From the NCBI RefSeq assembly GCF_021130785.1, contig NW_025776241.1:124001-188000 (forward strand): a DNA stretch of 64,000 bases, written 5' to 3'. A program made the translations under genes and the position numbers. Each line of letters opens with the position of its first letter. Positions within the stretch are counted from its first letter, which is position 1. The notes below the pieces were generated by a model. That model worked only from the letters and a program-made list of their open reading frames with translations, did no database searches and was not told the origin of the DNA. This DNA comes from Homalodisca vitripennis (Eukaryota > Arthropoda > Insecta > Hemiptera > Cicadellidae). Shown one piece after another: positions 5,525-59,616 of this stretch.

Positions 5525-5527
5525 ATT

Positions 5528-7066: not shown

Positions 7067-7140
7067 ATGTACAAAAATGCTATTTTGCGGAAAACTACAA
7101 AAATGTAAAAATTAACATCAAAATATAAGTGATATTACCT

Positions 7141-9326: not shown

Positions 9327-9422
9327 AAAAATATTTTACTGGACGTCCTAAAATTAGGACGTTGGGATCAAACGAAATTGTACCCCACGTCCTAAAATTA
9401 GGACGTTGGGATCGTAAGGGTT
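9327..9422. mobile_element. Residual piggyBac-like right end with two identical near-palindromes
   Basis: Reading inward from 9422 on the minus strand gives TTAACCCTTACGATCCCAAC, the TTAA-CCCT form of a piggyBac terminus. The hairpin-forming unit CGTCCTAAAATTAGGACG (8-bp arms, 2-base centre) occurs at 9344-9361 and again at 9388-9405. The rest of this element is not adjacent, because the 5' end of copy B interrupts at about 9326. Confidence 0.5.
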
Positions 9423-9594
9423 AAAGTGTTCAAATAATAGCCTAGAATATGTTGTAAAAATTTCAGTTTGATATCTCAAATGGTTTTTGAAAAAAGTGTT
9501 CCACAATGTAAAAAATGCAACTTTCGGGAATCGCGATTTATTAATGCGTACTATTTCAATGCTATAAAAAACAGATTTTACTTACAAATTGTGT

Positions 9595-9930
9595 TTAACT
9601 GATCACGAATCTCACAAAGATTTGATTGGTTAAAATTTTTATATGCACAACACAATCACAGGGCGAATTTATATCTGCGTTATGAGCTACAGTTACGGAT
9701 GGTGTATTCTCTATGCATACACTCTGTTCCTCCTGCAGCGGCTTCTTGCAGTCGTCACACAAAAAATTGGACTTTTCACCTTTAGAATACGAATATTCTT
9801 TTTTAGATTTCCCCACACACTCAAAATGAAACCACTTCATGCACTTTCCCTCGCACATTAATCCACCAGTAGTATTAGTAACCTTTTTAGGACACGCTCC
9901 ACAGACTGGATTCTTACTTGCAGGCGCCAT
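9595..9930 (-). CDS. PHD-finger protein fragment, possibly LINE ORF1-derived
   Basis: From an ATG at 9930 the product starts MAPASKNPVCGAC and shows a complete PHD-type Zn finger: C-x2-C, then C-x3-C, W-x2-C/H-x2-C and C-x2-C, ending FLCDDCKKPLQE. PHD fingers bind histone tails or DNA-associated proteins. In insects such short PHD proteins are often the 5' part of LINE ORF1 (family knowledge). The reading frame stays open only about 112 codons and ends without further domain. It lies beside a degenerate LINE reverse transcriptase (10270-11288) but on its 3' side, so it cannot be that element's own ORF1. A host gene is less likely given the surroundings. Confidence 0.55.
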   Translation of the reverse strand: MAPASKNPVCGACPKKVTNTTGGLMCEGKCMKWFHFECVGKSKKEYSYSKGEKSNFLCDDCKKPLQEEQSVCIENTPSVTVAHNADINSPCDCVVHIKILTNQIFVRFVIS

Positions 9931-10269
9931 TGTGAGTAATGACGCATGATAACAGACACCTGTAGACACCCATACAAATGCTGTCCTATATCATAAAGCA
10001 TTTTCAGTTATGCTGGAGCCCTGATGACAACACCAAGGTTGAGATTTAAGCTCCCATGAAGTACTTTGTGGAAAAACCAAAAATACACAACAAGATTATG
10101 ATTCCATGATCAGAAATCCAAATTCTTGCCACAAATCATTCTCAAGAATAGCATAGGCCCCAAGAAACTTGAAGGCCATTTAAGAAAAGAAAACCTCCTC
10201 TGAACCCCCTCAATAGCATCACAGGTATACCCCTAATCGCTATTCCAGATGGCACCGGCTTATTCAAGA
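9931..10269. other. No recognisable gene
   Basis: This stretch joins the PHD fragment to the reverse-transcriptase remnant. It may be LINE 3' sequence, but I could not identify a poly(A) tail or a duplicated target site. Confidence 0.4.
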
Positions 10270-11288
10270 TGACATCTCACAAGTGACATCAGACAGGTCT
10301 CTTTTATATGTACGTGTCTAGTAATCCACTTATTGAGCCCAAGATTACATTTTGTTTTAGATATGGCAAAATCAACATGCTGAGACATTAACAGCCTGGA
10401 ATCAAGCAACATACCCATGTCTGTAACAATAATCTTTCATGCCACAGGCTGGTCATCAATAACATAAGGAAAGAGAGATGTATCGACCTCTTGAATAAAA
10501 GACATTACCAAAATCTACCCCAGGTTCAAGTGTAAAATAGGTATTGTCCTTAATCCACTGATCAATCCTATTAACAGGTTTGAAGAAGATGATGATGATC
10601 AGTACCAAGGATTGGCAATGATATTATTTTTGATGTCATCAGCATAAAGATTAACATTGCATTCTAAAACCGATACTATATCATTGATGAAAAGAAGAAA
10701 AAAGTAGTGGGGCAAGATTTAATCCTTATGGCGCCCCTGAGAATCCAGTGAAACAGTCAAACATTATGTCCCCAAACAATACTCTGAAAAGCCTTTGTTG
10801 CACATACAACTGTGTCCAAGAAACAAGATCTGCAGAGAAACCAAAAGCAGGCAGTTACATTAATATTAAATGGTGAGGGAGCTTATCAAAAGCTTTCTTT
10901 AAGTCAAAATATATGGTATCAACTTGCCCAAGACTTTCAACCATTGCACCATCAACAAGAAAAAGATAAATCAGATTACATATTATAGAATGCCCACTTA
11001 AAAAGCTATATTGATAAGGGAAAAACTATGGAATACTTTCCCATAAATATATTTGAACATGACGATAGTCACTGTAGGAACAGCAGTAGGATTCTCCTAA
11101 ACCTGTTCATATACTTCCAAAAGTTAACTGGATTAGACTTCATCTCCTCTTCAACATCCTGACAAAACATTTTCTTACAAAGAACTAGTTTAGCCTGGAC
11201 GTCTTTTCTGAGGCAGGAGCAAATTGCATAGTCAATAGGTTTATCAATCCTCCTGAATTGTCTATGGTCTGTTTTCTTCTGCTTAAAA
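10270..11288 (-). pseudogene. LINE (CR1/jockey-like) reverse transcriptase fragment
   Basis: Minus-strand translation shows the linker between endonuclease and RT (CSCLRKDVQAKLVLCK then SNPVNFWKYMNRFR, 11220-11110). It continues with DTIYFDLKKAFDKLPHHL (RT palm, 10920-10865), a degenerate SGVPQG region, the catalytic box CNVNLYADDIKNN (10670-10635) and a thumb-like stretch at 10560-10300. Numerous frameshifts separate the blocks. Its 5' truncation point falls inside the C-terminal tail of the PF20700 gene at 11288, consistent with a 5'-truncated insertion there. It differs from the RNase H-bearing LINE family found elsewhere in the window. Confidence 0.75.
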
Positions 11289-12100
11289 AAAAACAGGCCA
11301 GCCCCATAACTTGGATTGTCTGTGTCTTCTTCCTTGTCCTCCAGCTTCCTTTTAGATTGCCTCTTGGTCTGCCTTGCCCTTTTCTTTAATTCAGGAGAAG
11401 CGCGCATTGAATTTCGAAGCCTCTCGTTGTCTAGTAATTTCATTGTAGAAACAGTGTTGTTGCCAATAGAAATGGCCAATTTCTGTAGGACCTTACATTT
11501 AGTAATCTGTCCTGTATTAAAAGTTGAAACAGTTTCATAAGCTCCAAAATGTAAGGTCTTTATAGCCACAAATCCAGGTTTTGGTAGGCGAGCCCATATC
11601 GCACTTTTTACACTTTTGTTAGGGTTTTGGGTCTTTTTGTGTAAACACTTTTTCAAGAGATCAGGATCTGACGGCTCCTAAACACTGGCCTAATAAACTC
11701 CATAATAACTGAGGGGATATTATTTGTATGTTTGTATGTCTCACCACTTACAAGAGATCGTTGATACTTGCACCAACTTTCAGCGCCTTTTGTGCAAAGA
11801 CCATGTTAAGGATTTTTATCACTGGATGACTTGTGATAAAATAAAGCCCATATTCCTTGCTTCATCTCTTGAACTGTATTGCTCCTACTTATGGCTTGGC
11901 CATAATAGGCCTGGAGCTGGTCTATAGCACTTGATGAAAGGCGGTTTTTACCATTCAGTGGTTTACCATCAGCAAGTTTTATGGACTTATTATCGGACTT
12001 TAGTTTGCGTAGCCTAGTACCCATCCGCTTTTCTATGTGTCCAATACACTCTAATTTGTCTGTTAGGACATCTGCTCCATAAGGCATCATCTCCTTTACT
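11289..12100 (-). pseudogene. PF20700 transposase 'CE', C-terminal half
   Basis: The stretch 12090-11806 carries MMPYGADVLTDKLECIGHIE, KRMGTRLRKLK and NRLSSSAIDQLQAYYG. The stretch 11656-11289 carries KKCLHKKTQNPNKSVKSAIW (Glu replaced by Lys in the usually invariant NES) and a basic tail ending NPSYGAGLF. The sequence begins exactly at the DUF7869 element boundary (TSD TACT 12097-12100). Its missing N-terminal half is found 13.7 kb away at 25819-26740, so the two were one gene before that insertion. Confidence 0.85.
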
Positions 12101-12679
12101 CTGCCCTACTATGGAAAAAAAACCTTAACTCCACTTCGGCTAAAACTGAGATATTTAACAAAACGTAAAAATTAACATTTATATAAGTATTTTTTAACAC
12201 AAGAAAGTAAATAACCATTAAAGTTATTTAAAAAATATAAACTTTTTTCAATGCAGTTAAAAAAATGTATTATTATATTTTTCTATGAAAAAATGGACTT
12301 AAGGTCTTTTTGCCTCAAACTCCTCAATTTCATTAGTATTGAGAAAGCCTTATCCCCTCGTTTTATTGGCATGTTGAAATACAGTTGTTTGCTTTAACGA
12401 AAGACTCCTTGTAGAATTACTTAAATCTCAACATGTTTTTACAAATTTAACTATTTTTGACTTCTAAATTGTTCAACCAGTTGAAAGTGAATTTGCTGTA
12501 GATTTTTTTTCGTTGGTTAATAAAAATTATATTGGTTTGTTCTAACATAGCAATGCTTACCACTTCTAAAATATTCATTTAGCTACTTTTGAAAATAAAT
12601 CAGAACACAGGAATTAAAAATACAAGACTGTATTCATACATTGTTTATTACAACAAATGTCATATTACTATTAGGCTTC

Positions 12680-13030
12680 ACACTCCTCATTACCAAGCTT
12701 AGTAAATGATATCTTCATTTCCTTGAGAACAGCTCTGTACAAATCTTACGAGCACTTAACACTAGAGTGTTGAGACCTGAAATTCATATGCATGTTATGT
12801 ATGGTTATGTCACTGGGTAAATAACGCCTCAGTGGAGCATGCTCTCTTCTGTAATGAGCAATTGCTGGGTTAAATGATTCCACATGTTCTTTTATTATAT
12901 CTCTGTCCACTTTGGTTGAAGGGGTACTTTTACCTCGACCATCAGGTTTGATGTTAGTTGGCTCTTTATCAACAGATAAAACATTATGGAGAACTGTATT
13001 ATTGTTTTTTATGTAACCTAAAGTTGTTGG
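12680..13030 (-). pseudogene. DUF7869 protein of Y1, middle segment
   Basis: The segment translates as TLGYIKNNNTVLHNVL, DGRGKSTPSTKVDRDIIKEH, FNPAIAHYRREHAPLRRYLP and, after a break at about 12746, EMKISFTKLGNEECEAC. The order matches Y2 and Y3, where a KTFFLSTLGYDKNNDRVL-type block is followed by a basic linker, a SHY-x-R block and a Cys-rich block. Downstream to 12101 no further coding was seen, so the D-N-C-S-A-Q-N-K-N catalytic region is absent from this copy. Confidence 0.7.
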
Positions 13031-13133
13031 GGACAGGTACGTCCCTATGCTACCAATGTTAAATTTGCTATTTTTCGGTACCGTTTTAATAAAAAGTATT
13101 TGACCTAAGGGCTTGAAATTTGGTGTGCTTATT

Positions 13134-13654
13134 GGGTCATTCCATGTCAATTCAACCAGGTCATTTCACCAAACACCTCAGATTTTATGAAAACTTGGTA
13201 CATTTTGTTCTATATATAGAGATTAATAACACCACCAAATTTTAAATTTTTATCTCACATACTTTTTAGTTATGGCACTTTAAAGTTTGGTCGTTTCTCA
13301 GTTTCCGAGCATTGGATAGTGCCCAGTAAAACGTGTATTAGGATAGAAAAAAAAATTCTCATTCACTTATTTGACACCCAATCTTGGTGGAAATTTTTAA
13401 GGTAGGTTTATATAAGTATAAGGAAGTTAAAAAAATATATAACATAACCCTAAGCTAAGCATAAAATATTATATAAAAAAATATTTTTTGAACTTTTTTA
13501 CAATTTAAAAAACGGGAACATGGCTCAGAGTAAAATTTAAATATCTCAAAAAGGAAATGAGATAATCAAGAATTTTTTCCCCCCTAAATTATCTATATGA
13601 AATGGGCTTTAAATTTTAATAAAATAAAAGTTTTGTGTATTTTCTTCCTTCTAT
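13134..13654. repeat. X1 left long terminal inverted repeat
   Basis: Roughly 520 bases match 18839-19367 in inverted orientation with few indels. Shared landmarks include GCCCAGTAAAACGTGTATTA and the run ending CTTCCTTCTATT. Confidence 0.9.
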
Positions 13655-14135
13655 TTATTGATACCATTGAAAGTGACATTATATTACTTACGAGCAATGT
13701 GAAGTTCGCCTGGTTTCAATAAATGGGTATAGCTTGTTAAACAAGGATAAATTACATTTTTATGTTTGGAAATCATAATTCACCCTTTCACTGTACTTAT
13801 TTTAAGGCTTTGAAAGTTAATGAACCATTAGCTTTTCAATTAATTTTATGCACTCTGGTGAGAATTGATATGTTCTTCCAGTCGAGGTGTGTGGAGGCTC
13901 AACCACTGCAAGGATGTGTGGAATAGGCACATCACATATATCATCTCGTTTTGGCCAGTAAAATGAGGGGGGATGGTCCTGCTGGATGAAGAAATTTTAC
14001 TGTAGCGTCTCCATCTTCCTTGGCAACATTTGTTATTATCCCAAAGAACCAAAGATTGTCGTATTTACAAGCAATGTAGCGTGAGGGGTACAAATCTATT
14101 TCTCTTACATTTAAGGCCAACCCTCTCCTTAAATT

Positions 14136-14890
14136 TCATCAGTACTAATTCGCCTTGCTTCTAATGTTCCTGAAGAGTCCAAGGGTCTAAAGTTGTGAAA
14201 ACTTCTGGTACCTGGAAGAGTATTAAGGTTTTCAAAACGTGTTTCAAGCTGTCGGCGAACATCATCTGCTGATTCTTTTGAAATGAAATGGAAATTTATT
14301 TTGGATATGTTTGATTTACAAAACTCGTAAAAGGTAAGCTGCTGTTAGTATTTGATCTTGAAGAGGCCTTTGAAGACTTGCTTTTCTCGCCAACCTTTTA
14401 AACAGTTCCCCAATACCGTCACATTCAGTTTTGCCGTGGCTTGTAGCAAAGAAAGACCATTGGCCTTTAATTTTGAAGTCTTTTTCATGAAGTGAAAGGT
14501 TCATGAAGTTGTATTTGTTCTTGTACTGTCCGGCGCAACCCGTCACTGTAATAGTGAACATCCGTGACATTGGGATAATTTTCCTTGACATACTCTAACA
14601 GGGTTTCTTGTATTTTATAAACCATACAAACATCATGATTTAAGTCATCGGAGATTACACAATGTGATGAGACTATTTTTTCCTCGTCAACACAACATGT
14701 TAATAATTACTGGATGAACAGTACAGGAGTCTGAGGTCCAATGATAACCTGCACCTCATCTTGAATCACAAATGAGAAATTCTCTCACTAAAGTCCATTG
14801 ATATAATGGCTTCGTTTGGCGCACAGTTATCCTTTAAGCTTTTAAAATAGCTGGACTGGCTTTTTGCAATATAAGAATGAGGGATCAGTT
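14136..14890 (-). pseudogene. X1 transposase-like protein, C-terminal part
   Basis: The diagnostic block is YYSDG, then a one-base insertion, then CAGQYKNKYNFMNLSLHEKD (about 14565-14490), followed by WSFFATSHGKTECDGIG and KRLARKASLQRPL, then a weaker tail (FHFISKESADDVRRQLETRF) to about 14136. The D-G-C-A-G-Q-Y-K-N block with FFATSHGK-x-x-CDGIG is a hallmark I know from unnamed, repeated insect and hydrozoan proteins; no domain name is certain. The N-terminal part continues at 16738-17924 beyond the LINE. At least two frameshifts are present. Confidence 0.75.
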
Positions 14891-14901
14891 TTTCTATTTT
14901 T

Positions 14902-16692
14902 CATGGGGGGGCTGACAGGACATGCATGCTCAGGTTCTACAAGCCACCATCCGTTCCTGTCTAGATTATGGATGTCAAAGCATATGGGTCCGCAAGACCC
15001 AGTGCTCTCAAAATGCTTGACCCAGTCCATAATTCTGCTTTAAGACTGGCCACTGGAGCTTTTCGATCTTCTCCTATTAACAGTCTTCTCGCAGAAACGG
15101 GAGAACCCCCTCTTTCGCATAGACGACAACATCTGTCCCTAAACTATGTTCACGCTCTTTCAGGGAAGCCAGAAAACCCTGCGTTTGAACCGGTCCTGCG
15201 AAATCCACTCTATAATTCTTTCCTAGCGAGACCAAATCTTCCTTCACCCTTAGGCGTTAGGGCCAAATCCTACGCTTATGAAATAGGCCTAAACGATTAC
15301 CAGTTTAAAGTCGTTCATCAATGTGATATCCCACCCTGGAGCGTCTCAATGCCAAAAATTATTTTTAAATCTCTGTAGGTTTAAAAAAGTCTCCACTCCA
15401 GAAACAGTCTACCAACAAGAAATTCCGTCAAATTACTAGGCAGCCTCGCACCTTGCGATGTTGTCTACACTGACGGGTCAAAGGAACGTTGTAGAACTGG
15501 ATGTGTGCTTTCGTCACTGGGGTAAGACGATACGGATTTCGTCTCCCCAACGACTCTTCTATTTTCACGGCCGAATTAACAGCCATCCAAAAGGCCCTAA
15601 ATATAAAGTTTTCCTATGACTAAAAAATTGGTTATCTGCAGCGACTCCCTTAGTGGTATACAAAGCCATCAGCGACATGTTTTCAAAACACATCATCATC
15701 CGCGAAATATGGCACTCTTTGTCTTCCCTTCAGTCCGAAGGTGTGCTGTCTTCCTTGTCTGGGTACCTGGACACATTGAGTATCCGGAAACGAGCTGGCA
15801 GATAGAGGAGCTAAGGAAGCATTACAAACTCCAGCCCTTACACCGCACGGATGATTTCTTCCGACATTACCCGGTGAGTGAAGGCCAAACTGAAAGCCAA
15901 ATGGAATAGCGATTGGCGGGCAGTCGTCAACAACAAGTTACGGCTTATTAAAGACTGCGTTGGACTCTGGGAAACAGCGAACGCCTGAGTCGTCGTGAGG
16001 AGGTTGTGTTGTGTCGCGCCTGGCGGCTAGGCCACACGCTTCTCACACATGGCTTCCTCATGAGTAGAGATGATCCTCCGGTCTGCGACACATGTGACAC
16101 TGTCATTACTGTCAAAACATGTGCTTGTTGACTGCCCTCGCTATTCGGTACATAGGCGCAACTCGAATCTGCCGGCTTCGTTGAACGATATTCTTTGTGA
16201 CGACGAGACGGTAAACTCAAAGATTGCTGTGTTTTCTGAATGCAACGTCGGCTGATTAATAAAATATAATTTAAATTTTTAAATTTATTTATTCAGATTA
16301 TCTATTGTTGTTAATATTTATAAATTTTATTATTTATTTTATATATCATTATCTTGACAGCTGCCAAAATTAGCCCCTTTACAGCTAACTTGGTGGCAGT
16401 AAATTGTGTTAAGTTTTTACAGTTTATTTAATTAATGTTATGTAACCTTGTCCTTATTTATGTTCTATTTATCTTTTAGTCCTTATATAGGTTAAGACCT
16501 CTCTACAGTCTTTCCCTCGTCATATTTATTGTTATGTAGTTTTAAGTATAAATTATTTACTCACCTACTTGTCGTAATTCCTATTTTTGTTATATACAAT
16601 GTAATCTGTATGCACCTAATTGACACTACCAGATACGAGTAGGTGTCAATTCTTTCTTGAGGGCAATGATAACCTCAGCGTTTTTTTGCCCC

Positions 16693-16727
<35 letters not shown>
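14902..16727 (+). mobile_element. 5'-truncated copy of the RNase H-bearing LINE
   Basis: The copy begins GGGGCTGACAGGACATGC-like, matching position ~38740 of the full-length copy at 34428-40547, and ends in CCCCTTATA plus about 31 A residues. A 10-bp target duplication TTCTATTTTT flanks it at 14892-14901 and 16728-16737, so this is target-primed insertion with 5' truncation. It contains the end of the RT region, the RNase H domain in broken frames (CSDSLSGI at ~15640; VWVPGHI at ~15765) and the whole 3' untranslated region. The interrupted host gene is the X1 transposase. Confidence 0.92.
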
Positions 16728-16729
<2 letters not shown>

Positions 16730-16737
16730 CTATTTTT

Positions 16738-17924
16738 GTTGCCAACTCGTCAACAAATTCATCAATAGTTGAAGTTTGTGTTATCATCTGTGTCCTGTCT
16801 GTAGCTACCCACTGTTTGAATTCTATTCTATCATCTTCTTCATAGTTTTCAAACTTTGCTTGTAAGAATGTTGTCAGATTGTCTTTTGAGGGACATGTTT
16901 CACATCGCCTTAACATGCAGTTTTGAGTTGGATTTTCACATAAAAGAAGATTTTGTAGATCTTTGTGACTCTCTTCCAGTTGTGCTGCATGTATTAAGAG
17001 CAACACATTTTGATGAATAGTACACACACAAAACAGAGTGTGTTCCACTAGCACCAGCCAGAACACACCATTTGGACGAAGAGTACAAAAACTTGGAGAA
17101 CCCTATGTTTATGTCAGGATGTTCCCTTTTGAAGTTTGCAAATATTTCATTGAGGTTACTTAAAATTAATCTTTTCTTCTCATATTTTTTTCTTTCCCAG
17201 GCTTACTACATCTTTCATACCTGGCAAAACTCTTGATTGCTCGTCGCTTTGATAAAAAATTTGTGACCAACTCCACAACTTCAGGAACTGAGTTTCTTTC
17301 CTCTTCTTGATTCAGGTTCAGCCAAAAAGTCCTTTTTCTTTGTACAATTTTTGTGCCTGTCTAGCAGAATAATCAGACACTTCAAAGGCATCTTTGATTT
17401 TTGTTCTCGACCAATTCAGTGATGCTGGAAGCGTTAATAGTTGTATTTTCTTTTTTGATGAAAGTTTATTTACTTCACTTTTTATATTTTCAACAAGCAG
17501 GTCCATTTCATCTGCTTTTTGTTTCAGCTGTTTTTTGCAATTTAGGTATTTTTTGGTGGCAACTGAACATCTAAAACTGTTTCAATTTTCTTTTTTACAT
17601 TTTGATGCAGTTTTTCTAATTTATTTTGTGCATAACCAATTTTTGGAGTTTTCATTCAACGCATGTAATTTAAGAGGTGAACAAACCAATATCCGTTAAA
17701 GAGGAAATTTAGAGAGAATCAATAGCCTCTTCTTTTTGTAACTGAGTTTCAGTTTCAGTCGGCAGTGTAAAAAGATCATCATCATGTGATTCTTCTTCAC
17801 AGTCATTTGGAGTAGAGAATATATTTTTAGAGCAATTGGTGCACAACTTTTCCCCTGGTTTTACCTTTAAACCTTTTGTGATACAGGCCTGACTTTGCTG
17901 AATACTTACAACTCTTAAAGCCAT
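16738..17924 (-). pseudogene. X1 transposase-like protein, N-terminal part
   Basis: Reading from 17924: MALRVVSIQQSQACITKGLK and a C-x2-C pair (GEKLCTNCSKNIF), then an acidic stretch. Next come SKKKIQLLTLPASLNWSR and an HTH-like block TKIKDAFEVSDYSARQAQKL (17410-17340). After frameshifts follow HTLFCVCTIHQNVLLLIHAA, CMLRRCETCPSKDNL (Cys-rich) and EFKQWVATDRTQMITQTSTI to the LINE junction at 16737. The block order equals that of X2 on the plus strand at 51142-52670. Not intact. Function inferred as the transposase of the long-TIR element because it is its only gene. Confidence 0.75.
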
Positions 17925-17999
17925 TTTTAATGGGTTTCTTATGTTTTTTTAAAAGGATCACAACAGACTTTTTGGAGGAATTCGTACTTGGTCAAAAAT

Positions 18000-18838
18000 A
18001 AACTCTTATGATGCAAACAAATGTTAATTATTTCCTTATCATCTAATTCACTTCTTATTTTAATCAAGTGTGAGATTTTCTTCAGACAAATCACTAACAT
18101 TTTCTAGCCCTTTTTTTTGTAACATAAGTTAATTTGTGGCATTCTTTCAGTTTTAATAGCCCTATACTACACTTATTGTCCATTTCTAATTGATTTAAAA
18201 GCAGGTTAAATTTCTCTTCTTTACAAATGCATCATAAAACAAACGAAAATTTCAAAAATTAAGTTCAAAAATTTGATCTATACAAGTATATGGAATATCA
18301 TTAATCTTTGTATTAATATTAGGTTTTTTTTAAAGATTGGCACCTTAGTTAAAACTCAATTCAACACTCAGACACACACACTAACACAAATATCATAAAT
18401 CCAAAGAAAGGTAAACACACCACTTTTATAACCACCACAGCTTATAACACTGTTACCTCTTGGGACACTAGTAAACAGGACTGGCTCATAACTGTCAGAT
18501 ACACTGCCTAGAAAAGCAGCCTGTCATGACATGAAAACCTCGTGTTGCAACTTGCCCAGATTAGGAGGGTAGAATATCTGCCTGTTTATTTCTGTAGTCT
18601 AATCTATTTAAACATGAATGTTGACATTGAACTTAGGTACAGTACTGTGTTAAACTAAGCTTCTATATAAATATTATAATAATTATAATGTTTATATAGA
18701 ACATTATAATTATTAAAATGTTAAATTAAAATTATTAAAAATTTTATTTAATTTTCATTAACAATCTGTAGCCATTGAGACTGGTACAACCTCGCTTTGA
18801 TTGTAATTAATATATTGTAACTTGCAATGGCCTTAGTT
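18000..18838. other. Non-coding interior of X1
   Basis: AT-rich sequence between the transposase start and the right long inverted repeat. No coding segment or RNA gene was recognised; it probably holds the element's promoter and 5' leader. Confidence 0.5.
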
Positions 18839-19367
18839 AATAGAAGGAAGAAAATACACAAAACTTTTATTTTATTAAATTAAAGCCCACTTCATATAGA
18901 TAATTTAGGGGGGAAAAATTCTTGATTATCTCATTCCATTTTTGAGATATTTATTTAATTTTACGCTGAGCCATGTTCCCGTTTTTTAAATTGTAAAAAG
19001 TTCAAAAAATATTTTTTTTTATAATATTTTATGCTTAGCTTAGGGTTATGTTATATATTTTTTTTAACTTCCTTATACTTATATAAACCTACCTTGAAAA
19101 TTTCACCAAGATTGGGTGCCAAATAAGTGAATGAGAATTTTTTTTCTATCCTAATACACGTTTTACTGGGCACTATCCAAGGCTCGGAAATTGAGAAACG
19201 ACCAAACTTTAAAGTGCCATAACTAAAAAAGTATGTGAGATAAAAATTTAAAATTTGGTGGTGTTATTAATCTCTATATATAGAACAAATGTACCAAGTT
19301 TCATAAAAATCTGAGGTGTTTGGTGAAAAAATTATTTTTTTCTGGTTGAATTGATGTGGAATGACCC
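18839..19367. repeat. X1 right long terminal inverted repeat
   Basis: Inverted counterpart of 13134-13654; ends in TGGAATGACCC directly before the duplicated TATT. Confidence 0.9.
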
Positions 19368-19697
19368 TATTGCAATGACTAATATTGACAAAAATAAGGT
19401 GTTATAGACTTTTCCTAACTATAGTTTGTGTTTTATAACTTTTTTTATAAAGCGATAAAAAAATCGAATAGTTTTGAAACTTTATTTTTTTAAGAAACTA
19501 TTTTTTGAAATATTTTGCTATAAAACCTTATAATTGTTTATTATGTTATAAAGAACTCCTATGCAAAATTTCTTTGAATTTGGACCATTAGTTTAGGAAA
19601 AAAAGTGTACCAACGTTCGGAAAATGTGTATTTTCGGAAAAACACATTTAAAAATAAATTACGTATTTCTATGCAATTCAAAACAAACAACTTTCAT

Positions 19698-21316
19698 TCA
19701 ATAAGCTCCAGGGTCATAATCTGGATCATCTGAGCCTTCTTCATTTTCTACAAGCCTCCTCTTCCTATTTATCTTTGCTTGAGAAGCCCTTTTTTCAATT
19801 TCCTGTAGTTGTTTTTCAGCATGGTACACACGAACTTGATCTTGCGATTTTAGTCCAACAACACTGTTTGGTCCACAACTGCCACATAACTTCTGTAGTA
19901 CTTTTACTTTACTAAGGACACCCTCATTATAAGATATAACTGAGTCAAGCACTCCAATCTTTAGAGTAAATAGGCCTACAAATGTGTTTTTTGGTATCCT
20001 CGACCAAATCAGATTATTAAATGACTCATTTTGATTCTGAGTTTTCCCGTGCAAGCACTTTCTAAGCAAGTTGGGGTCAGCTAAATCTTTATAAATTGGT
20101 TTTATAGTTTCCATGACGACCATTGGTAAAACTTTTTTGGTGCTGGTAAATCAATTTTTAGGGCTTTTGCTCGATTGTATTTGCACCATGAGGTTGTTTC
20201 AGTAGGACAAAGTCCATGCAAAGGTTTTTCAGCGGTTGAAGCCTTATGGAAAAAAGTAGCCCATCCTGCTTTTTTCATGTTGTCAATATTGTCACTATTA
20301 TTTCTAATAGCTTCGCCATAATAGCTCTGTAGCTCATATATTACATTGTCTGTTAACCGATTTTTACCGCCAAGGGGTTTTTCCATCTTCCAACACCGTA
20401 CCTTTCATTTTTTGACAAAGTCTGCGCAGTCTGGTGCCCATCCTCTTCTGGATGTGACCAATACATTCCAGTTTTTTTTATCTCTATATTATCTCCATAG
20501 GGTTTCTTCTGGCTCACCACTGCAAATGATTTACTATCAATGTCCCCTAAATAGTTAGTGTACATGGCAGGATTACTCACTGTGTTAGAACGGTCATATA
20601 ATACTTCAACGCCTTGAATCTCCATGCCCCCACTAGTTCCTTTGTAGTTAGCTTGGCAGCCTTCATGGTTACCAATGTCCTTTCCTTTACAAATAAAGCA
20701 GTATTTGGACATACAATGAACATCCAAAACTTTCCCTGTGTCCAAGCTAGTAACAGTTACTACACCATTCAAGGTTAAAAATCCTCGCTTTTGCCAGCTG
20801 CCGTCAAAAATTACACTTATTTTATTGTCCCCATCATTTTCTGCTATAGCTTGCATAATAGCATTATTCATTGATTCATTAGCTACTTCACTTATGCATT
20901 TATACAGCTGTTTATCATACCTGTTAAATCTAGCAGGAGGTTTAGGTAAGTTCATAATGGAGCAGAATGTTTGGGCTGCCGCCCGACCTTTGCCGATATT
21001 TCGGCAAGCATAAACTAACCTAAGGTTATTTTTATAGAACTTAGACTCTGTAAGTTTTGAGGACATGAACTGTTTTTTAGCACTACAATTATTACAGGAC
21101 AGTTTTGATTTGGAAACTATTCCTCGGCGCATGCCTATGTCTTCCGAAAGTTCAATCAACAATTCTTTTGAACAACGTTTACATTTCGCAAATTCACCAA
21201 TTGCTTTACTTAGAATACTAATATTTACAATAACATTACCGTCTTGGAATGCATTGGGTGTATCATAATAATCATTGTCATCACTACACATACTCAAGTA
21301 CTGCAGTTTCTTCTTA
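19698..21316 (-). pseudogene. PF20700 transposase D, main coding block
   Basis: The stretch 21297-20353 is one long open segment with CKRCSKE and SCNNCS (zinc-binding Cys pairs), NNLRLVYACRNIGKGRAA, VIFDGSWQKRGFLTLNG, GTSGGMEIQGVEVLYDRS and TNYLGDIDSKSF (usual GDGDS altered to GDIDS). A frameshift near 20470 precedes the conserved GH-x-x-KRMGTRL stretch, which remains readable in another frame. A second segment (20386-20102) holds LGGKNRLTDNVIYELQSYYG and WCKYNRAKALK. The last (20123-19698) holds CLHGKTQNQNESFNN and ends DPDYDPGAY. The first exon is at 23811-23962, separated by a LINE whose 12-bp target duplication lies at 21305-21316. Confidence 0.9.
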
Positions 21317-23809
21317 CCGTCCTGGTATGACGTTTAAACTGCCCACACCCACCTAAACCATTTCCTTAATTCCTACCCAATCCCCCTCCAGGGTCTATTA
21401 GTACCCGCTCTGTTCGACCGTTCCAGTGCCATGGCTCGCTGGGAGTGCTTAAGCCGGCACTAGGTGCCCTATCTGGTGTCCGGTGAGAGCTGATGTGAGC
21501 TTGTCTCTGCCGAGGCGTAAGTCATGTACTGGTTCAGAAGCCAGCCACTTCGATGTCCTTGGTCAGGAAGTGTGTATTGAGCAGGAGTGTCGGAGCTCCT
21601 GCTGCAACGTGCGAGCCCAGGCCGTGCGAGCATACCCAGCCTGGTTAAACGAGTCAACACCGGGCCCCGGGGATCTGGGGTAGATTAACCTGGGCTCCCA
21701 CGGGACCCAGTTTTATCGAGGGCGTGCCCATTCCCGGTGTATCTCGGCCTTCACCCTTACACACGATGCGCTGGTTAAAATATTTATGGAAACTGAAAAC
21801 CACCCCAAAACTAGGGCGAAGCGTAGTAACTAGAGATCAAAGTGATCTAGAGAAGAAACGGCAGTTGTCCTGACCTCAGAATGTGAGCTCGATCAAAACA
21901 AGCAAAGAAAAATGGAAAAAGAACAAACCGACGATGAGATAAAATATTCCTACTCCCTTATTTCTTGTGCTAAGTTATAAGGAAGATGGAAAGACTTTGA
22001 CTAAGTTGAGCCCGTTCCTTATCCACAAATCTTTAGTAGCCTGTGGAGGGGCAACCTAAATCTATAAGGAAGCTGAGGAAAATGGAACTATCCTGTTGGA
22101 GAAGCCTGCAAATTGCATCCAATCCAAGAAGTATCCTTAAAATGACGAGTTTTTTTGACCAGTAGCGATTACTGTCCCAGCCTCATGCCTCTCTGAACTC
22201 TTCCAAGGGAATCGTTATTCTGTCGAGACCTTATGGACTGCAGTGAAGAGGAAATAAAGGTTGAGCTGCAGTGCGAGGATGGTGACCCTGATGTGTTTCA
22301 GGATTGTTCGGACCGAAAACGGGGTAATAGGTTTCCTACCCCGGGTCTTATTTTAACCTTTGCAAAACCCCATATCCGCCAAAACCATCAAAGCCGTTTA
22401 TATGTCTTTGTCTGTGCGCCCGTACTTTAAAAAACCCCCAGCGGTGTTTTCCGCTGTCAGAGGTTCGGGCACTCCAGTAAAGTGTGTTCGAACCCGAGAC
22501 ATGTTCCCGCTGTGGTGATGAAGGACACCAAGAGGAGGAGTGCAAAAATGAGACCGCGATGCATCAATTGCAAGGGAAAACAATCCGGCATACTCAAGAG
22601 AGTGTAACATCTTTAAAGAAGAAAAAGAAATATTAAAAATTATGACTATCGAAAAGCTTTCATTTAACGAGGCGCGTAAAGAGTACAGGAGGACGGGTCG
22701 CCCCAACTCCAAAAAAAGGAGTTTCCCTACTCTGAAGCTGTATCTGTCCCTGTTCAGACTGCACAGTGTTCCTCATGTACAGTCTTGGAGGGTATGGTGC
22801 GCTGCTATTGACTGAGCAGGTGGCTGCACTGGTTTCAGCACCCTCGCCGCAGGTGCTGGGGAACAGTCTGTGGGGTCCTTTGCCCAGTAAATCCTCCCCG
22901 AGACGTTCAGACCCTCCTCTAAACCTAATGCACAGTCTTATGTTAAACCCCCTTCACCAGGAGGTCTTACGTAATAGAGATAAAGTTCAGCAAAAAATTT
23001 GAAACCTGCCTTAAGTTTTAGAAGAGAGAAAGAAATTGTCAGAAAAGCTTAAGAAGAATATTCAAACTAAAGTCGATAACAGGTCAAAAGTACCTGTTAG
23101 GAACCCAAACACGTCATCATCTAAGTCATCTCAACTGTCCATCAATGATGATGGACACGACTGAGATCCTTTGGAGCTCCGGACGGAGTTCCAAACGTTA
23201 CTGGAACTTTTCCCGCCCTGTTACAGAAAACAAAGAAAGAAAATCACTGATGTATAAAGAAGTAAAATATTGCATGCATTATAATAATAAAATAAAAACA
23301 TGCTTTATTCAATGGATAAACGCTGATAAACAAAATATAGTATTGGTGTTTAAGTTTATCTATTCCGATTATTAATTGTTGTTAATAATTTATTAATTTT
23401 ATTATTTAATTTTTATTTATGACCAGCTTGCCAAATTAGCCCCTTTACAGCTACCTTGGTAGCAGTAAAATTTGTTAAGTTTTTACAGTTTTATTTAATT
23501 AATGTTATGTACCTTTGTCCTTAATTTATGTTCTATTTATATTTTTAGCTCCTATATGGATTAAAGACCTCTCTACAGTCTTTCCCTTGTTACATGTATT
23601 GTTATCTAGTTATAAGTTATTTAAAAATTATTTACTTCACCTACTTGCCTTTGATTCCTATTTTATATTTTTTATTATAGAATGTAATCTATGTTTGCCT
23701 AATTGACACCACCAAATACGAGTAGGTGCCAATTTTCTCTTGAGGGCGATGATAAACCGCTGCGTTTTTCGCCCCTTATAAAAAAAAAAAAAAAAAAAAA
23801 AAACAACAA
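21317..23809 (+). mobile_element. Internally deleted copy of the RNase H-bearing LINE
   Basis: The 5' end CCGTCCTGGTATGACG is the same as in the full-length copy (34428), and the 3' end has CCCCTTATA plus A-rich tail. A 12-bp duplication AGTTTCTTCTTA flanks it (21305-21316 and 23810-23821). ORF1 is present in broken frames: MDCSEEEIKVELQ at 22233, zinc knuckles at about 22450-22600. At about 23320 the sequence jumps from the ORF2 start (TTATTCAATGGA) directly to the 3' untranslated region (GCTGATAAACAAAATATAG), deleting about 3.7 kb including endonuclease, RT and RNase H. It could not have coded for its own retrotransposition if the deletion predates insertion. Confidence 0.9.
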
Positions 23810-23810
23810 A

Positions 23811-23962
23811 GTTTCTTCTTAGAAGAGCTCAGTTTAGGCCTAGGAGAAGTCTTTGGTTGGGCTAAGGTTAGAAGTACTAGGTTTAGAACTGTTCACTTCT
23901 TGGCTTACATTAGGGCTACTACTGTTCTTTCTCCTCTTCCCAAATTTCCTTATTCTAGACAT
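23811..23962 (-). pseudogene. PF20700 transposase D, basic first exon
   Basis: The ATG at 23962 opens MSRIRKFGKRRKNSSSPNVS followed by Ser-rich sequence. After a one-base shift, PRPKLSSSKKKL runs to the LINE junction and continues on the other side as QYLSMCSDDNDYYD. Short, Lys/Arg-rich N-termini of this kind precede the zinc-binding pairs in copies CE, F and H as well, and likely act in nuclear import or DNA contact (inference). Confidence 0.75.
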
Positions 23963-24409
23963 CACATTTGATTCAATAACAACAACTCACAAAGAAAATA
24001 TAATATAAACACTACTCACAACATCAATCAACAATCACTTTAAACAACAATAATATGGCTGTTACTGTTGGTAGAACGAACGCGACATTTTGGAGAACAG
24101 ACAGGCTCAGATAAAAGAAAACAGGTTAGCCAACACAAGAGCATTGAAAAATGCCCATAGCCAACTACTTTATTGTACAGTGCATTGTAAGAAATGTCTA
24201 AAGCGACTACTCATGGCGACTTCGCGCTCAATGTCCCTTGCAATCATTACGTAAATTAACGTTTACACTATGAAATGATTATGTAAAGTGCATGTATTTG
24301 GTATCATTTTATTCAGGAAAAGGCAAGGAATAATAAATGCAAAATAACAAAATTTGTAAAAAAAATTTTTTTTGGACGTACCTGTCCCCTTCCCGGTTCA
24401 CATTTAAAA

Positions 24410-25240
24410 TTAAGTAAGGAACGTCTTACACACTTTTTTTTTTCGTTCTCATTACTCAAAAAGTATTTAAATGAAAATTTCCTGTTTGAAGTCTCACTAC
24501 CTCGTCGCCTTTTCACACCTTGCCTACATGAAGAAATCAATAAAAAAATTCTTTGGTCATGCCAGCTTTTTTAGCAATACAATTCATTAATGGCTTTTCT
24601 TCTGCTTTCTATTATAATTGTGGAACATTTTAAACGACAATTTTGACAAGGGGGCCGTACTGGGTGGTTCACTGTAAAATTCTCAAGTTTTTTTAAAATT
24701 CTTTATCCTTTTTGGTCATAGTTGATTTTTTCCGAATCCGTGGAGTCCCTTTTTTGTCAGACCGTCTTGTCCATTGCCATCTGCAGTTGGGGAAGAATCC
24801 ATATCCGGTACATGATCTTCAATTACAATCTCATTATTACAAGTAATTATATTACTATAGGAACTACTGTTGCTAGGTACATTTACTGATGTAGGTGAGC
24901 TTTCACAGTCAATTTGATAACCAAATCATAAATTTGGATCAGTGATGGAAGTGTTACCACAAATGTTTCGGTCCTCTTGAACAGGCTTCACAGCATTACT
25001 ATGATTTTGTACCATAGAACAACACTTTATAGGCGAAAGTTCAGTCAAAACATAGCTAGAATCATGGTCAGTGTAATCCGGTATACAGTCAGGATTTTTA
25101 ACAGGAGTACAAAGTCTGGAATTGGTGGTGATCTCGGGTGCCGAATGGCAAAGAGAAAGCTCAGAATCGTCTTCATCACTTACATCATCATTCAGCAATT
25201 TTGCAATATAATTATCCCTCAAAGTACTATAATAACTCAT
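24410..25240 (-). pseudogene. DUF7869 protein of Y1, N-terminal segment
   Basis: The segment 25240-24926 gives an acidic N-terminus (SDEDDSELSLCHSAPEITTN, CIPDYTDHDSSYVL). Frames then break; PPCQNCRLKCSTI at about 24660-24620 is the C-x-C-x3-C zinc-like block seen as PNCQCRNKCF in Y3. The segment 24540-24313 gives GVKRRRGSETSNRKFSFKYF and KVCKTFL, matching the RRR...C-K-x-F-F block that precedes TLGY in relatives. The next block (TLGYIKNNN) is on the other side of element D at 13030. Multiple frameshifts; not functional. Confidence 0.7.
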
Positions 25241-25259
25241 TTTGTCCAGTTAAACAACA

Positions 25260-25756
25260 TTTAATGTGTTAAATATACAAATATGTTACATGAAGTACAC
25301 TAACACACTTCACAGATCCACTACACACCTTTCCACAATTCTATGAATGCACTGAGAGGTTATGCCAAACATAAAAACTCAGTTTAGAGGGAAACACTGA
25401 CTGAAAGCTGACTAACTAATTTGTTAAATCATTTGTTATTTATTAGACCAAAAAATCAACCATTCAGAGAGAAGAAAACCTTAACTCCAACTGTACACAG
25501 GAGATAATGCTTTCATCCTTCTTATGGTGTGATGAACTGCCTTGCTGTTTGAAGATAAAAGACCTTATGTATAGGAACAAGTGGACATAAGGCTTTCTTC
25601 ACTAAAATGTGTCAGATAAAGCCTTTTTACTTAACATAGAGGCACTATTTGGTGTTAAGGTAAAGTTTGTTGATGATTTTAAGGGTAAAAAAAATGTTTT
25701 TAATGCCTTTTCCCTATTTTTAGAACACGTGTTTTAATGCATACTATCAGAAATAA
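25260..25756. other. Subterminal non-coding region of Y1
   Basis: Between the DUF7869 start and the right end at 25814. Contains several copies of a CCTTAACTCCA / TAAGGC-like motif (for example at ~25490, ~25590 and 25780) reminiscent of the terminal repeat, but no gene. Confidence 0.5.
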
Positions 25757-25818
25757 TTAAAAACTCAAAAATAAAGAAAAATTGGAGTTAAGGCCTTTTT
25801 GCTTAGCAGGGCAGTACT

Positions 25819-26740
25819 GATTGGAATTTGAGTCTCCGTCACCGAGGTACTTAGTATACCGAACATTATAAGCACTAACGGATTTATTGAAAATTTCTCT
25901 GGCCCCATGTACTTCCATCCCTCCGCTTGGTCCATGATAATTAGCCTTACATGAATCTAGATGTTGTTCGGTTAGACTTTTTGGGCATTTACAATGTTTT
26001 GACATAATGGAAACATCTATAATTTTCCCCGTATCAAAACTAGTTACAGCCCCATTCAAAGATTTATGGCCACGCTTTTGCCACGTGCAATCAATAGCAT
26101 CTGGGATGTCACGGTTACCTTCATTTACCAATACTGCTTCCTCAACTGCATCCTTCATAGTCTCAAAACACACATTCTCAGTTACTGATCCTAGAACCTC
26201 ATTGTAAGGTAAAAATTTTAGTGGGGGTTGAGGCAAGTTCATGATGCCACAAAAGGTTTTCGCTGCTTCACAGCCTTTGCCTATGGCACGGAAGGCGTAA
26301 ACTAACCGTAAGTTAGTTTCAAACAAACTGTTTATTTAATTTGAACTAAAAAAATGATGACTGTACATACAACTTTTGCAAAATATTTCAAGTTTAGAGC
26401 TTAGGCCTACACTGCTAATGTTTCGAATTTCGACAGTAGCGGACAAACTATTTGAACAAGCCAAACATTGTGATAATGCATTGTTCAGCAAGGTTAGGTC
26501 AATTAAAATATTTTCATTCATTTGATCTTCATATTTTTTATATGTTTCCTATATGTTTATGTTTGTTTGTTATATCTTCGAAGCACTTTCAATAGGGATT
26601 GAATCAATATCAGAATCTAGGCTAGTACTAGGCTTAGGTGTGGAATTGTTACAAACTGGAACAACGTTACCTCTAGTTTGCCCAACATTTCTTCTTTTCT
26701 TGAACACAGTTCTTGGCTTCTTAGGTCTTCTTCGTTCCAT
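25819..26740 (-). pseudogene. PF20700 transposase 'CE', N-terminal half
   Basis: The ATG at 26740 opens MERRRPKKPRTVFKKRRNVG, a basic first exon. After a break come a Cys pair region (CLACSNSL and CKSCMYSHHF, 26521-26340). Then follows 26326-25819 with TNLRLVYAFRAIGKGCEAAK, CTWQKRGHKSLNG (usual DG-x-WQKRG with Asp retained as DAIDCTW), GPSGGMEVHGAREIFNKS and TKYLGDGDSNSNQ. It stops at the DUF7869 element boundary (TACT 25815-25818). The C-terminal half continues at 12100-11289. Confidence 0.88.
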
Positions 26741-27154
26741 TATAATAATATATAAATAGGCTACCACTAACAGAAATAATAAGTTATATTCAATAAAAAC
26801 ACAAAAAGTTGCTATAAGTAAACAAACAAAACCTCAAACAACACAACACACATTTATGATCAATGTAAACAAACGCAGTATTGCTATCCTTGTTGTGTTT
26901 GCAGATTAGCCAACAGTAACACACTAAATCATCATCATAATTAAAAGTAATGAGTACTATACTGCCCTCCTAAGCCTAAAAGACGTATCTCATTAAAACC
27001 ATAACTTTCGGAAAAGAGCAATCTAGTAAAATGATTATTTTCACCCAGTTATTCATTAAATTAATTAATTTTTTTTTAAACTACATTTATTTAATTTTGT
27101 TTCTGTGTTTGATTACTATCTTTAATTAGATAAAATTTTCACTAATTTATGCTT

Positions 27155-27235
27155 TTTTTTGTGAGATACGTCTTTTTTCTTTAGTAAAATCTGCCGTACC
27201 GTTATGTTTATAAAGTCGTATCTTATTAAAAAAAA
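27155..27235. repeat. Left subterminal motif copies of Y2
   Basis: GTGAGATACGTCTTTTTTCT at 27160 and AAAGTCGTATCTTATT at 27211 are direct and inverted relatives of the terminal AAGACGTATCTCA block; likely repeated transposase-binding sites. Confidence 0.65.
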
Positions 27236-27466
27236 GGTAGTAATTAAGAAAACAATAATAGCATTGATATAGAACATTTTGTCTATGGCTGCATTTTCTT
27301 ATTTAATTTTTTTTATTCAAAAAGGTAAATAAGAAACAAACATTTAAGAATAAAATGCTTATTTTATTCATATTATAATATTCCATAAGTTAACACAAAA
27401 ATAATTTTAATTATAAAAATTCTGAACACAAAATACTCTTGCATCTTAGCCACATATGGAAATCTT

Positions 27467-29699
27467 TTATGGCTCTGGGAGATTTTCCCAAAACAAGAGT
27501 CTGCTCTTTTCGATTACACCTCCTATATTTTTTAGAATGTTCTTTTTCTTCTCTGCAGGAATACAATTTACTTTCACCTGTTTTTTTTGGGTTTTGGTAA
27601 AGCCACTGATTTGACTATTATACTTTGTGCTCAAAAAGTTGAGCTCTACATGTTCAGTATCAGAGAAATCATTTTTGTACTAAAACCGATTGTGCTCCTC
27701 TAGTGAAGATGACTTCGACCATTTCACTTAAATACGGCCTAGGTTGAATACGGCCTAACTTATATTGTGACGAGAAGTCATTCCATAAAAAAAAGTGTTT
27801 TTAAGTCCATGGCAAGTACTTCACATTTTGGAGATGCATTTTTCACGGCTTGTATAAAATCTGCAAAATCATACAACTTATTACCCATCCTTTGCATGGA
27901 TACCTCAACTCTGTGGTGAAAAGAATCTGCTGCCATGAAGGTATGTCCGGGCTCAAAGTATCGTAGGATGATCTGTGAGGTACTAATTTCAGGAGAGTTA
28001 ATAATAAAAAAGAGGAATGAAAAAAAGTGTCCCAATTTTTATTCTGAGCTGAACAATTGTCCAGCACACAGAGTGATCTGTCTTGTATCTCGCTTATACA
28101 ACAAAAATTGATAAAATGTACTAATCAATTTCATCCTTTGTTCTTCCAAACACACCTTCATGCCATACAGCAGCAAATACATTAGACTTTTTTTTTTTGT
28201 TTTTTACCTACAGGCACAAAACTTTCATTGTATGCCACAATTCTGTTTGTAAATATTGCTGACTTAAACATATCCAGACGTGGCAACATAATAACTTTTT
28301 TCCATGTCTGCAAAGTATATAATTGAATCAAAATCTTCTGCTCTCTCCTTATCAGCCACATAAACAGATCGAGATCTTGTTGCTTTGTCATAGTGCTTTT
28401 TCCAATTTTGGCAAATTTTGCAAGTATCATCCAAATTTTTCTTTTGTGTGTAGATTACTGTGTAAATTAAAACTCCTCACACGATTCGCATTCTTCATGG
28501 CCTAACTTTACTATCGATATCTTCATTTTTTTGGCAACGGTTCGGTATTTTCCATAGGAACACGTGTTACCATATTTTTATCTTATAGTCATTGTACATT
28601 TTAGTAAAAGACAAATCACTCGATAGGTATAAGCGATTTGGGGCATGTTCTCGCCGATAGTGAGATATAGTTGGTCCAAAAGAATTTATATGATTTTCGG
28701 ATTGGTTCTTCTCCGATTTTGTTATGAGGTTCCTTTGACCCTCTCTGATCTTTTTTTGCTTCTACAGAGGTTGTTGAAGTTAGTGCAGTTCGTAATACCC
28801 TGTCGTTATTCTTGTCATAACCCAAGGTACTTAAAAAGAACGTTTTACAGACTGTCTGAGATTTTCCGTTCTCATCCTTAAAGCGAATACCTAAATGTTT
28901 GGTTTCTTCTAAATCGGTTTCCTTCCCATTTGGCACTGTTCTCTGCTTAACAGAAATAGTTGACACATGGTGTAACATTAATGATTTTCTAGCTGTGGAA
29001 TCTTCAATTTGCCAAAATTCTGAGTTGAGTACTAGTCTTCTTTCATTAGAGAATTTGCTTGTGCACTTATGTACACAAGTGTTATTGCAACCAGGTTTAA
29101 CATTGTGTTTTAGTACAACTGACTTAAATTTATTTATTTTTCTCTGTTCAAGAGAAACATTATGCTTTTTTTCTCTTTCTTAAATGTACCCTTTTTTGTA
29201 TAATCAAGAAACATTATTTTGTGCCTTATCAGATACTGCACTGCCACTTCTCAGTATTGGTTCAGATGGCTTGGTATTTTTGTAACACATTCAAATTGGT
29301 CATTTCGGTTGCAACTGTTTTGAAGAGGTTGTAGCTGTACTAAGTTGTTTGCTTCCCTGTTGGTAATGTTATCATTGTTCAAAATTATACTTGGATTTTC
29401 ATTTTCATTAAGTACTACCTGTGTACATGTAGGTGGTTGAGGCATAACTTCAATAAGGTTTTCTTCATAATTAATTTGTAGGCCTACATCTTCCTTATCC
29501 TTAATACTAGACGTACCTTCAATTTCCAATGAATTAGATATAGAAGTCCTCACTGTCAAACACAAAGTCTGGGATGTAGTCATCATCAATCACTCTTTTT
29601 CTTTTTAAAGGGGGTTTGCCTGCTCGATCCAGCAAAACTCCTTTTCGTTTCTTGATTCAGAGCTGCCATAAGCATTTTTCTCCCTCTAGATCTCTCCAT
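27467..29699 (-). pseudogene. DUF7869-type protein of Y2, full length but frameshifted
   Basis: The ATG at 29699 opens MERSRGRKMLMAALNQETKR, then a basic stretch and, after a shift, DDDYIPDFVFDSEDFY. The middle (28978-28616) has VPNGKETDLEETKHLGIRF, a VCKTFFLSTLGYDKNNDRVL block and KSYKFF, then a KKCESCEE Cys region near 28490. The catalytic-type block LDNCSAQNKNW is at about 28067-28035, followed by YFEPGHTFMAADSFHHRVE (PEPGHSYLP-D-R in Y3) at 27960. The tail ends RLLFWENLPEP at 27467. At least four frameshifts. The D-N-C-S-A-Q-N-K-N and E-P-G-H motifs are typical of proteins labelled DUF7869 in insect genomes (label from memory). Placement between TIRs argues it is a transposase. Confidence 0.8.
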
Positions 29700-30329
29700 G
29701 ACTGGGCTGGAAATAAACAGAACAATTAGAAATCAATTAAAACAAACAAGAAATTAGGCAAGGCTACCGAATCCATTAGGGTCTTTAGATTTGTAGGTTA
29801 GAAAAGTATAAGTTTGCATAGTAAAAATGGTAAAATTTGGGCTTCAATCTGAGAAGTAAGTTAGTAGGCCTACTTGCTTAACGGGACAACTGCAAGCCAG
29901 TGCATTAAAGTATATTTTCGTTTAAACAAATGTAAAATAGTAAATCTTAATACCTTAACTATCTAGTAAACTTGTAGGCCTATGAACACTCATTTCTAAA
30001 CCAATTACTTGCGTAGATTTTACTGCCTCTAAAGTGAAAACAAGTATCTGCCCAACATAATCTCTCTTAAAGTTTGTGTAAATAACCTATTAGTTTGTTA
30101 ATTGAGTAAGCTTGAATAAGCTTATGTTTAATCACAATTATTAAGAAGAGGAAATTTGTTTCAAAGAATATAATACTAATAACTTAAGATGAGGACAAAA
30201 TGTATTGCAATTTATATTTACCTGTATACTGAAGAGTGAAACCAACAAAAAACTGTTACTGACACAATTTAAAACAACACAGCCATCAGCTGATTACCCA
30301 GCATTCTCCACTGTGAGCATCAGTGTCTC

Positions 30330-30655
30330 CTAAGCAAATAAGACGTATATTCTAGATACGACTATTTTGTTTATGAAAGGACAATCATTTTATTTCTAAG
30401 TTGTGAAGCGGAAAAGTCGTATCTCTGAGATGCGACTTGTTGGCTTAGGAAATTGAGATACTGCTAAAATGCTTAGGATTTTCATTGTTATTTTGAGATA
30501 GGTCTTATTTTTTTATCGATTTTATACTGTTTAGATGTGAAATACGTCTTTTCCGCTTAGGGAAAAAAGATGGGTTAGCTCCCCAACATTACTTAGACGT
30601 CAAAAACGAAAAATCGAAAAAAATTGAGATACGTCTTCTACGCTTAGGAGGGCAG
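30330..30655. repeat. Right subterminal motif array of Y2
   Basis: Within ~320 bases the ATACGTCTT / GTCGTATCTC motif and GCTTAGG recur in both orientations: near 30340, 30352, 30410, 30419 (GATGCGACTT), 30432 (GGCTTAGG), 30500, 30541, 30555, 30628 and the terminal copy at 30640. Confidence 0.75.
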
Positions 30656-30733
30656 TATAACAAATAAGTTGCGTTGCTCAGCTATGAGGTTTTGTTGCCT
30701 TGCCATATTTACGTAAACACACTTTCGAATATA

Positions 30734-31521
30734 CAAGGGCGGTTCAGAAAGTAAGTTTCTTTGGTTAATAAAAAAATGCAGAATATACTTACAGATTTTT
30801 TATTACACACATAACTATTACACTATTTTTCAACATAATTACCAAAATTAACACGTATCATATCTGGTTACGAGTTCTCAATACCCGCCGCGTAGAAGTC
30901 TGCCGCATGTGCACCTAACCAGCCGCTAACGGAGTTTTTAAGTCTGTAAAGCGCTAAGATCCCAGCCATTTCTTCATATTGGGAAAAAGGTGAAAATCGC
31001 TGGGTGCCAAATCTGGACTGTAGGGGGGATGGTTCAAAGATGTCCCAGGCAAAACTGTTCAAAAGGTCCTGAGTTCGGGCAGCTGTATGCAGCCGCGCAT
31101 TGTCATGCAGGAGAACAATGCCTGAAGTCAACATTTCCCGCCTACGATTCTGTATAGCCCTTCTCAATGTTTTGAGTGTCAGAATAGACTGCAGCGTTTA
31201 TGGTTGTCCCTCTTTCCATGAATTCCACTAGAGTAATCCCTTTTTTGTCTCAAAACACTGTTGCCATAAGTTTTCTTTTCGAAAATGTTACATTTCACGG
31301 GTTTTCTTGGCGATGACGTGTGACCCCATTCCATCGATTGTCTCTTTGTTCATCCATGTCTCGTCACCTGTCACAATCTGACTAAGGAATTCTTCATCTT
31401 CTTCATGGTAGTGCGAAAGAAATGTTAAAGCGGATCCCATTCTCTTCTTTTTGTGCTCATCAGTCAAAAGTTTAGTGACCCAACGAGCACAAAATTTGTG
31501 AAAACCAAGTCTCTTTGTCAC
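30734..31521 (-). pseudogene. mariner-family element fragment with transposase C-terminal two thirds
   Basis: A TA followed by CAAGGGCGGTTCAGAAAGTA at 30732-30753 resembles a mariner terminus. Minus-strand translation gives GFHKFCARWVTKLLTDEHKK, IVTGDETWMNK (first catalytic Asp), after a shift MEWGHTSSPRKPVKCN, and VLLHDNARLHTAARTQDLL (second Asp, about 31105). Downstream the frame degrades before the third Asp. The N-terminal third is absent: the gene is cut at 31522 by a Tc1-like element starting after TA. Confidence 0.8.
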
Positions 31522-31523
31522 TA

Positions 31524-32061: not shown

Positions 32062-32172
32062 TCAAGGCCACACTAGCATCCCAGGCCTCGCTGCTGCCCT
32101 GTCGCTGGCTGCGTGATGTTACGGTAAGGGGCAGGCTCCGGCTCAACTATCTCGGCGTTTCGCACCCTCATA
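32062..32172. repeat. P-element terminal block, 5' side
   Basis: The ~110-bp GC-rich block is almost identical, in inverted orientation, to 61978-62096, so the P family has at least one other end in this window. It includes a CGTGATGTTACGG core where the other copies read GTGACGTCAC. Confidence 0.8.
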
Positions 32173-40547: not shown

Positions 40548-40555
40548 AGAACTTA

Positions 40556-59612: not shown

Positions 59613-59616
59613 CCTA

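Follow-up and report, generated by a model that had tools for sequence, protein, structure and literature searches.

Within a 64,000-nucleotide stretch of Homalodisca vitripennis DNA (the window; C127:124001-188000, where C127 is contig NW_025776241.1), an initial annotation made from the letters alone had described five levels of transposons inserted within transposons at 11289-26740. This nest is real and the insertion order first read from it is correct, with a probability of about 95%, though the list of levels was incomplete: the nest reaches from about 9420 to 30732, and its outermost element also took a second DUF7869-type transposon (E2), an insert termed F, and, it appears, elements of piggyBac and mariner type. 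In the proposed course of events, a Kolobok-like transposon, O, would have been struck in its own gene by E1, a DUF7869-type transposon with a deletion (target TACT), after which a second Kolobok-like transposon, D, would have entered E1 at TTAA. D would later have been struck separately, in either order, by X1, a transposon with long terminal inverted repeats (TIRs; target TATT), and by a long interspersed nuclear element, LINE2 (12-bp duplication), and a 5′-truncated relative, LINE1, would have entered the transposase gene of X1 (10-bp duplication). O, E1, D, and X1 presumably moved by cut-and-paste through DDE/D transposases, and the two LINEs by target-primed reverse transcription.

The order of insertion is readable because uninterrupted copies elsewhere in the genome show the sites as they were before arrival. 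Searches of the 2.305 Gb genome (14,901 contigs), which score the best candidates only, recovered uninterrupted host elements with a single target site for E1 and E2 in O, for D in E1, for X1 and LINE2 in D, and for LINE1 in X1. The comparison with other genomic copies proposed in the initial annotation found uninterrupted counterparts for each layer at its junctions. All junctions, these counterparts, and a collinear contig, C198, that lacks X1 with LINE1 as well as LINE2 were observed. O, E1, and D occur together only on C127 and C198, and a conserved mobile unit, which was named at the outset as the observation that would speak against successive insertion, was rejected, no separate copy with the entire nested order having been found among the best candidates. 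Nests of this kind are already known, and the present one is ordinary in kind and new in no principle; the evidence for every step is unusually complete. As in nested-transposon tools such as TEnest and REANNOTATE, of which the latter is described as determining the temporal order of insertions (PMC2672092), relative order is inferred from which element interrupts which. Here, in contrast, DNA transposons make up most of the hosts, and the genome itself holds uninterrupted copies that support each step as well. Since layering, empty sites, and sequence divergence are concordant at one locus, the nest offers a calibration for dating when transposons were active in this genome.

O (9420..30732, minus strand) is the outermost element found and lies in pieces at 9420-9598, 11290-12100, 25819-26961, and 30660-30732; neither of its ends was found within the window. 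The pieces are collinear with copies L051-L054 at 91.7-96.7% identity, these four having been fetched from 12 other O-like places that match at 86-94% and cover most of the query. PF20700 is detected in the right half of the gene (E=7.5e-31) and not in the left half alone by Pfam scan, yet that half aligns with relatives. The gene is split, as first reported, by an element flanked by TACT (12097-12100 and 25815-25818): removing E1 and one TACT brings the PF20700 halves together precisely at the boundary of residues 293 and 294 in a relative (5846-7111), the two halves being in different frames. The frame change fits a loss of 4 bases beside the site relative to L051, and with the stops that are also present, O is decayed in the window. 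All four copies have a single TACT at the E1 site, a single TATA at the E2 site, and no F. Three of them (L051, L052, and L053, on contigs C126, C8, and C6) differ by only 0-0.06%, and the O family has thus moved recently, though the window copy is old. A left end of O near 10.9 kb was considered and rejected, D scoring 50 against the supposed O 3′ region with a shuffle mean of 61; the O copies place it at 9420.

E1 (12101..25814, minus strand) has the TIR CTGCCCT (CTGCCCT...AGGGCAG) and measures 2353 bp without D. Its alignment with protein P0121 ends at residue 422, ahead of D481, D561, and D605, meaning that the catalytic domain is missing; judging from its sequence, E1 is a non-autonomous relic. 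Its initial description as a DUF7869 element thus holds for the type of transposon and not for what remains of it, which lacks the domain. E2 (26962..30655, minus strand; target duplication TATA; TIR CTGCCCTCCTAAGC), absent from the first list, retains its catalytic region in broken frames. PF25273 (DUF7869) is carried by 118 of the 120 listed relatives of E2, the named ones being insects and mostly beetles; the pieces of E2 itself have no Pfam match, and E1 lacks that region. Target duplications of 4 bp were read for the E type as TACT, TATA, TGCT, and TATT, with L044 unclear and the left end of L041 missing. The stretch of O beyond E2 matches the O copies at 94.7-96.0% and scores 28 against D, where shuffles score 32.

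D (13029..24389, minus strand; PF20700, E=2.7e-44) is bounded, as described initially, by a perfect 16-bp TIR, GGGGACAGGTACGTCC, at 13029-13044 and inverted at 24374-24389; 0.07 such ends are expected by chance with up to 3 mismatches. Four near-full E1 copies outside the nest (L041-L044) all lack D and read AAAGTTGTTAAAAGGAAC at the target TTAA. In the window the arrangement is AAAGTTGTT-D-TTCCCGGTTCACATTTAAAATTAAGT-AAGGAAC: the left flank retains the TT of TTAA, and 26 bp (24390..24415) replace the AA of the D-free copies. D entered TTAA, with the AA lost on one side and the 26 bp standing for it on the other. C198 has the same arrangement, including the 26 bp with one base different. From 413 candidates in the D search, 40 matches were scored and the seven closest besides the window, at 96-98%, were analysed, along with two matches of a 68% group. 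The X1 site is uninterrupted in six of the seven (L002-L006 and L008; L007 is deleted there), and the LINE2 site in five (L002-L006; L007 and L008 are deleted or unaligned there). A comparison of D to a related 3′ end at 57881-58420, made after removing X1 a few bases off its target site, gave an alignment that runs across the X1 junction (score 152, shuffle maximum 102) and was superseded by these real copies of D.

X1 (13134..19367, minus strand) lies in D between TATT at 13130-13133 and 19368-19371, and LINE1 (14902..16727, plus strand) lies in its transposase gene, which also has frameshifts and stops, between copies of TTCTATTTTT at 14892 and 16728; both insertions are as initially reported. 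LINE2 (21317..23809, plus strand), of the same family, is flanked in D by AGTTTCTTCTTA at 21305 and 23810. The initial reading of its place and target duplication holds; in structure it is internally deleted, with its 5′ end kept. Relative to a fuller family copy at 34428-40550 (duplication AGAACTTA), it lacks the stretch 36398-40093, and no splice signals were seen by eye at its internal join. The fuller copy contains a reverse transcriptase (RVT_1, E=1.4e-16, 38235-38654), which together with A tails, the 10- and 12-bp target duplications, and the 5′ truncation of LINE1 is shared with non-LTR (non-long terminal repeat) retrotransposons, from which LINE2 differs in being internally deleted rather than 5′-truncated.

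The collinear contig C198 matches the window from 1 to 26735 at 98.5-98.8%, listed differences aside, and on the opposite side it matches at 99% over about 4.3 kb of the 6.3 kb that follow. It holds O, E1, and D, with a single clean TATT and a single AGTTTCTTCTTA in place of the inner arrivals. Two stretches of extra DNA are particular to it, one of 5.8 kb near position 1555 that has piggyBac-like ends at TTAA and one of 7.4 kb near 9975; C127 is longer by about 2 kb at 119886-121892. A LINE starts in C198 at 26735, beyond which the contigs cease to match; it begins near 36378 of the fuller LINE copy, after a run of G. The two contigs are thus about 1% apart, with at least five large insertions or deletions within some 33 kb, which makes present-day transposon activity testable. 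Alleles are the likeliest interpretation of this pair. A recent segmental duplication is possible but the more doubtful explanation: the two are separate contigs in the assembly and their match ends at 26735, and divergence of about 1% with collinearity over some 33 kb fits alleles equally well or better.

Private substitutions, defined as nest-specific changes against a 75% majority of sampled copies, rank the layers in the order of the nest: 70/1715 in O (4.08%), 49/2158 in E1 (2.27%), 37/2543 in D (1.45%, D being trimmed a few bases away from the target site of X1), and 29/4347 in X1 (0.67%). Private divergence thus falls with depth, which provides a ranking and not an age. Most private changes of the outer layers are common to C198 (66 in O, 44 in E1, and 32 in D), leaving 4, 5, and 5, respectively, to the window only. 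Several points weigh against the proposed history. The copies were drawn from the best matches, and the percentages depend on that sampling; among the D copies counted, L007 is short and L008 is misaligned across its own deletion. D has no intact target duplication in the window, which is a correction to the initial reading, and 26 bp stand beside it. E2 is uncheckable in C198, since the match stops at 26735. Finally, X1 shows a higher private divergence (29/4347) than the outer layers have gained in the window alone after parting from C198 (14/6416), and a six-copy comparison giving X1 31 unique positions, in 18 clusters by hand count, still exceeds that figure. X1 may consequently be older here than the empty site in C198 suggests, or may come from a separate sub-lineage.

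The same excess would speak for C198 having formerly held X1 and then shed it by precise excision, its site being healed rather than never hit. This is unlikely given that the C198 site carries no footprint and that X1 is absent as well from five other copies of D that lie outside the nest. It is slightly less probable still that LINE1 inserted into X1 elsewhere in the genome, after which the pair moved together into D, making LINE1 older than the arrival of X1. The private divergence of X1, 0.67% against 0.05-0.16% in other sampled X1 copies, does imply some separate history, but with a query spanning the LINE1 junction (40 scored of 452 candidates, among which a junction-bearing copy would rank at the top), only the window matched on both sides and the other 39 of 39 stopped at the junction. 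In 31 of these the far-side match abuts with 0-2 bases between, in one it follows after 3,095 bases, and seven have no partner in the list. An assembly artefact as the source of the order would be most improbable of all. The contigs that carry the two copies of the nest are short and unplaced, the genome is rich in repeats, and C198 parts from the window at 26735; the junctions, for their part, coincide exactly with element ends and duplicated targets, and those of O, E1, and D are common to C198, yet the inner sites there are single and clean. Successive insertion thus remains the preferred history of the nest.

O and D are called Kolobok-like by comparison with the definition stated in PMC9587614. 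TTAA stands on both sides of D copy L008 and O copy L051, and on the one visible side of D copies L003, L004, and L007 and O copies L052-L054. L006 has TCAA on both sides, L005 has no TTAA, and the window D differs from Kolobok in lacking an intact TTAA duplication. The ends of O and D, GGGG...CCCC, follow the 5′-RR...YY-3′ pattern of GG...CC ends. The CxxH motif following GDGDS is seen, as a sequence motif only, as ECVGH or ECIGH in the relative at 5846-7111 and in O. A literature search for PF20700 found no papers. Further PF20700-type genes or fragments at 3428-8600 and 32224-33358 indicate that the stretch is rich in Kolobok-like elements.

The X1 family is the most interesting by-product of the nest analysis. 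It is recently active, and its transposase is predicted to combine an integrase-like DDD core with a Tudor-like C-terminal domain. The arms of X1 are 88.9% identical across 647 alignment columns, and among named relatives its protein is closest to a partial one from Homalodisca vitripennis (81%). Target duplications of the X type are TATT, TAAG, TAGA, TTTA, and TAAA, with one mismatch in L047 and L046 cut off. Four X1-family relatives scanned had no Pfam match above cut-off, protein P0001 had no solved-structure relative by sequence, and Foldseek alone returned nothing convincing. X and DUF7869 profiles were tried as alignable cores and rejected, there being no alignment and a probability of 2.6%. 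E- and X-type elements may be akin to the Sola superfamily, with which they would share the duplication of 4 bp of target and three invariant aspartates, placed on a core predicted to be integrase-like. A point of difference is that no alignment joins the E and X profiles. A literature search for DUF7869 also found no papers. From the copies collected here come the termini, target sites, and fold predictions of the DUF7869 and X-type transposase groups, whose function is left open in public domain libraries.

A second nest at 50652-59640 involves an X-type gene (51181-52670 and 59066-59587, plus strand) interrupted at about 52671-59079 by an element that ends in GAAGACCCC and is flanked by AATT. 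Inside this element lie a match to DUF7869 (53576-54067), the pieces of a piggyBac-type transposase (55403-57303), and a fragment of Kolobok-like type (57444-57881).

Among the remaining insertions in O, F (9599..11285) is flanked by TTAA (9595-9598 and 11286-11289) and is absent from L051-L054. At 9405..9419 a probable piggyBac-type outer end, CCCTTACGATCCC read inward, stands next to the TTAA at 9420, and no second end was found. A probable mariner-type element (30733..31540, approximate extent), of which one end only was found, cuts O on the right. Both labels are presumed from the end sequences. Elsewhere in the window, a 59-bp unit occurs in three tandem copies at 5526-5702, and an inverted repeat of 108 nt, 93% complementary, joins 32065-32172 and 61985-62092, 29.8 kb apart.

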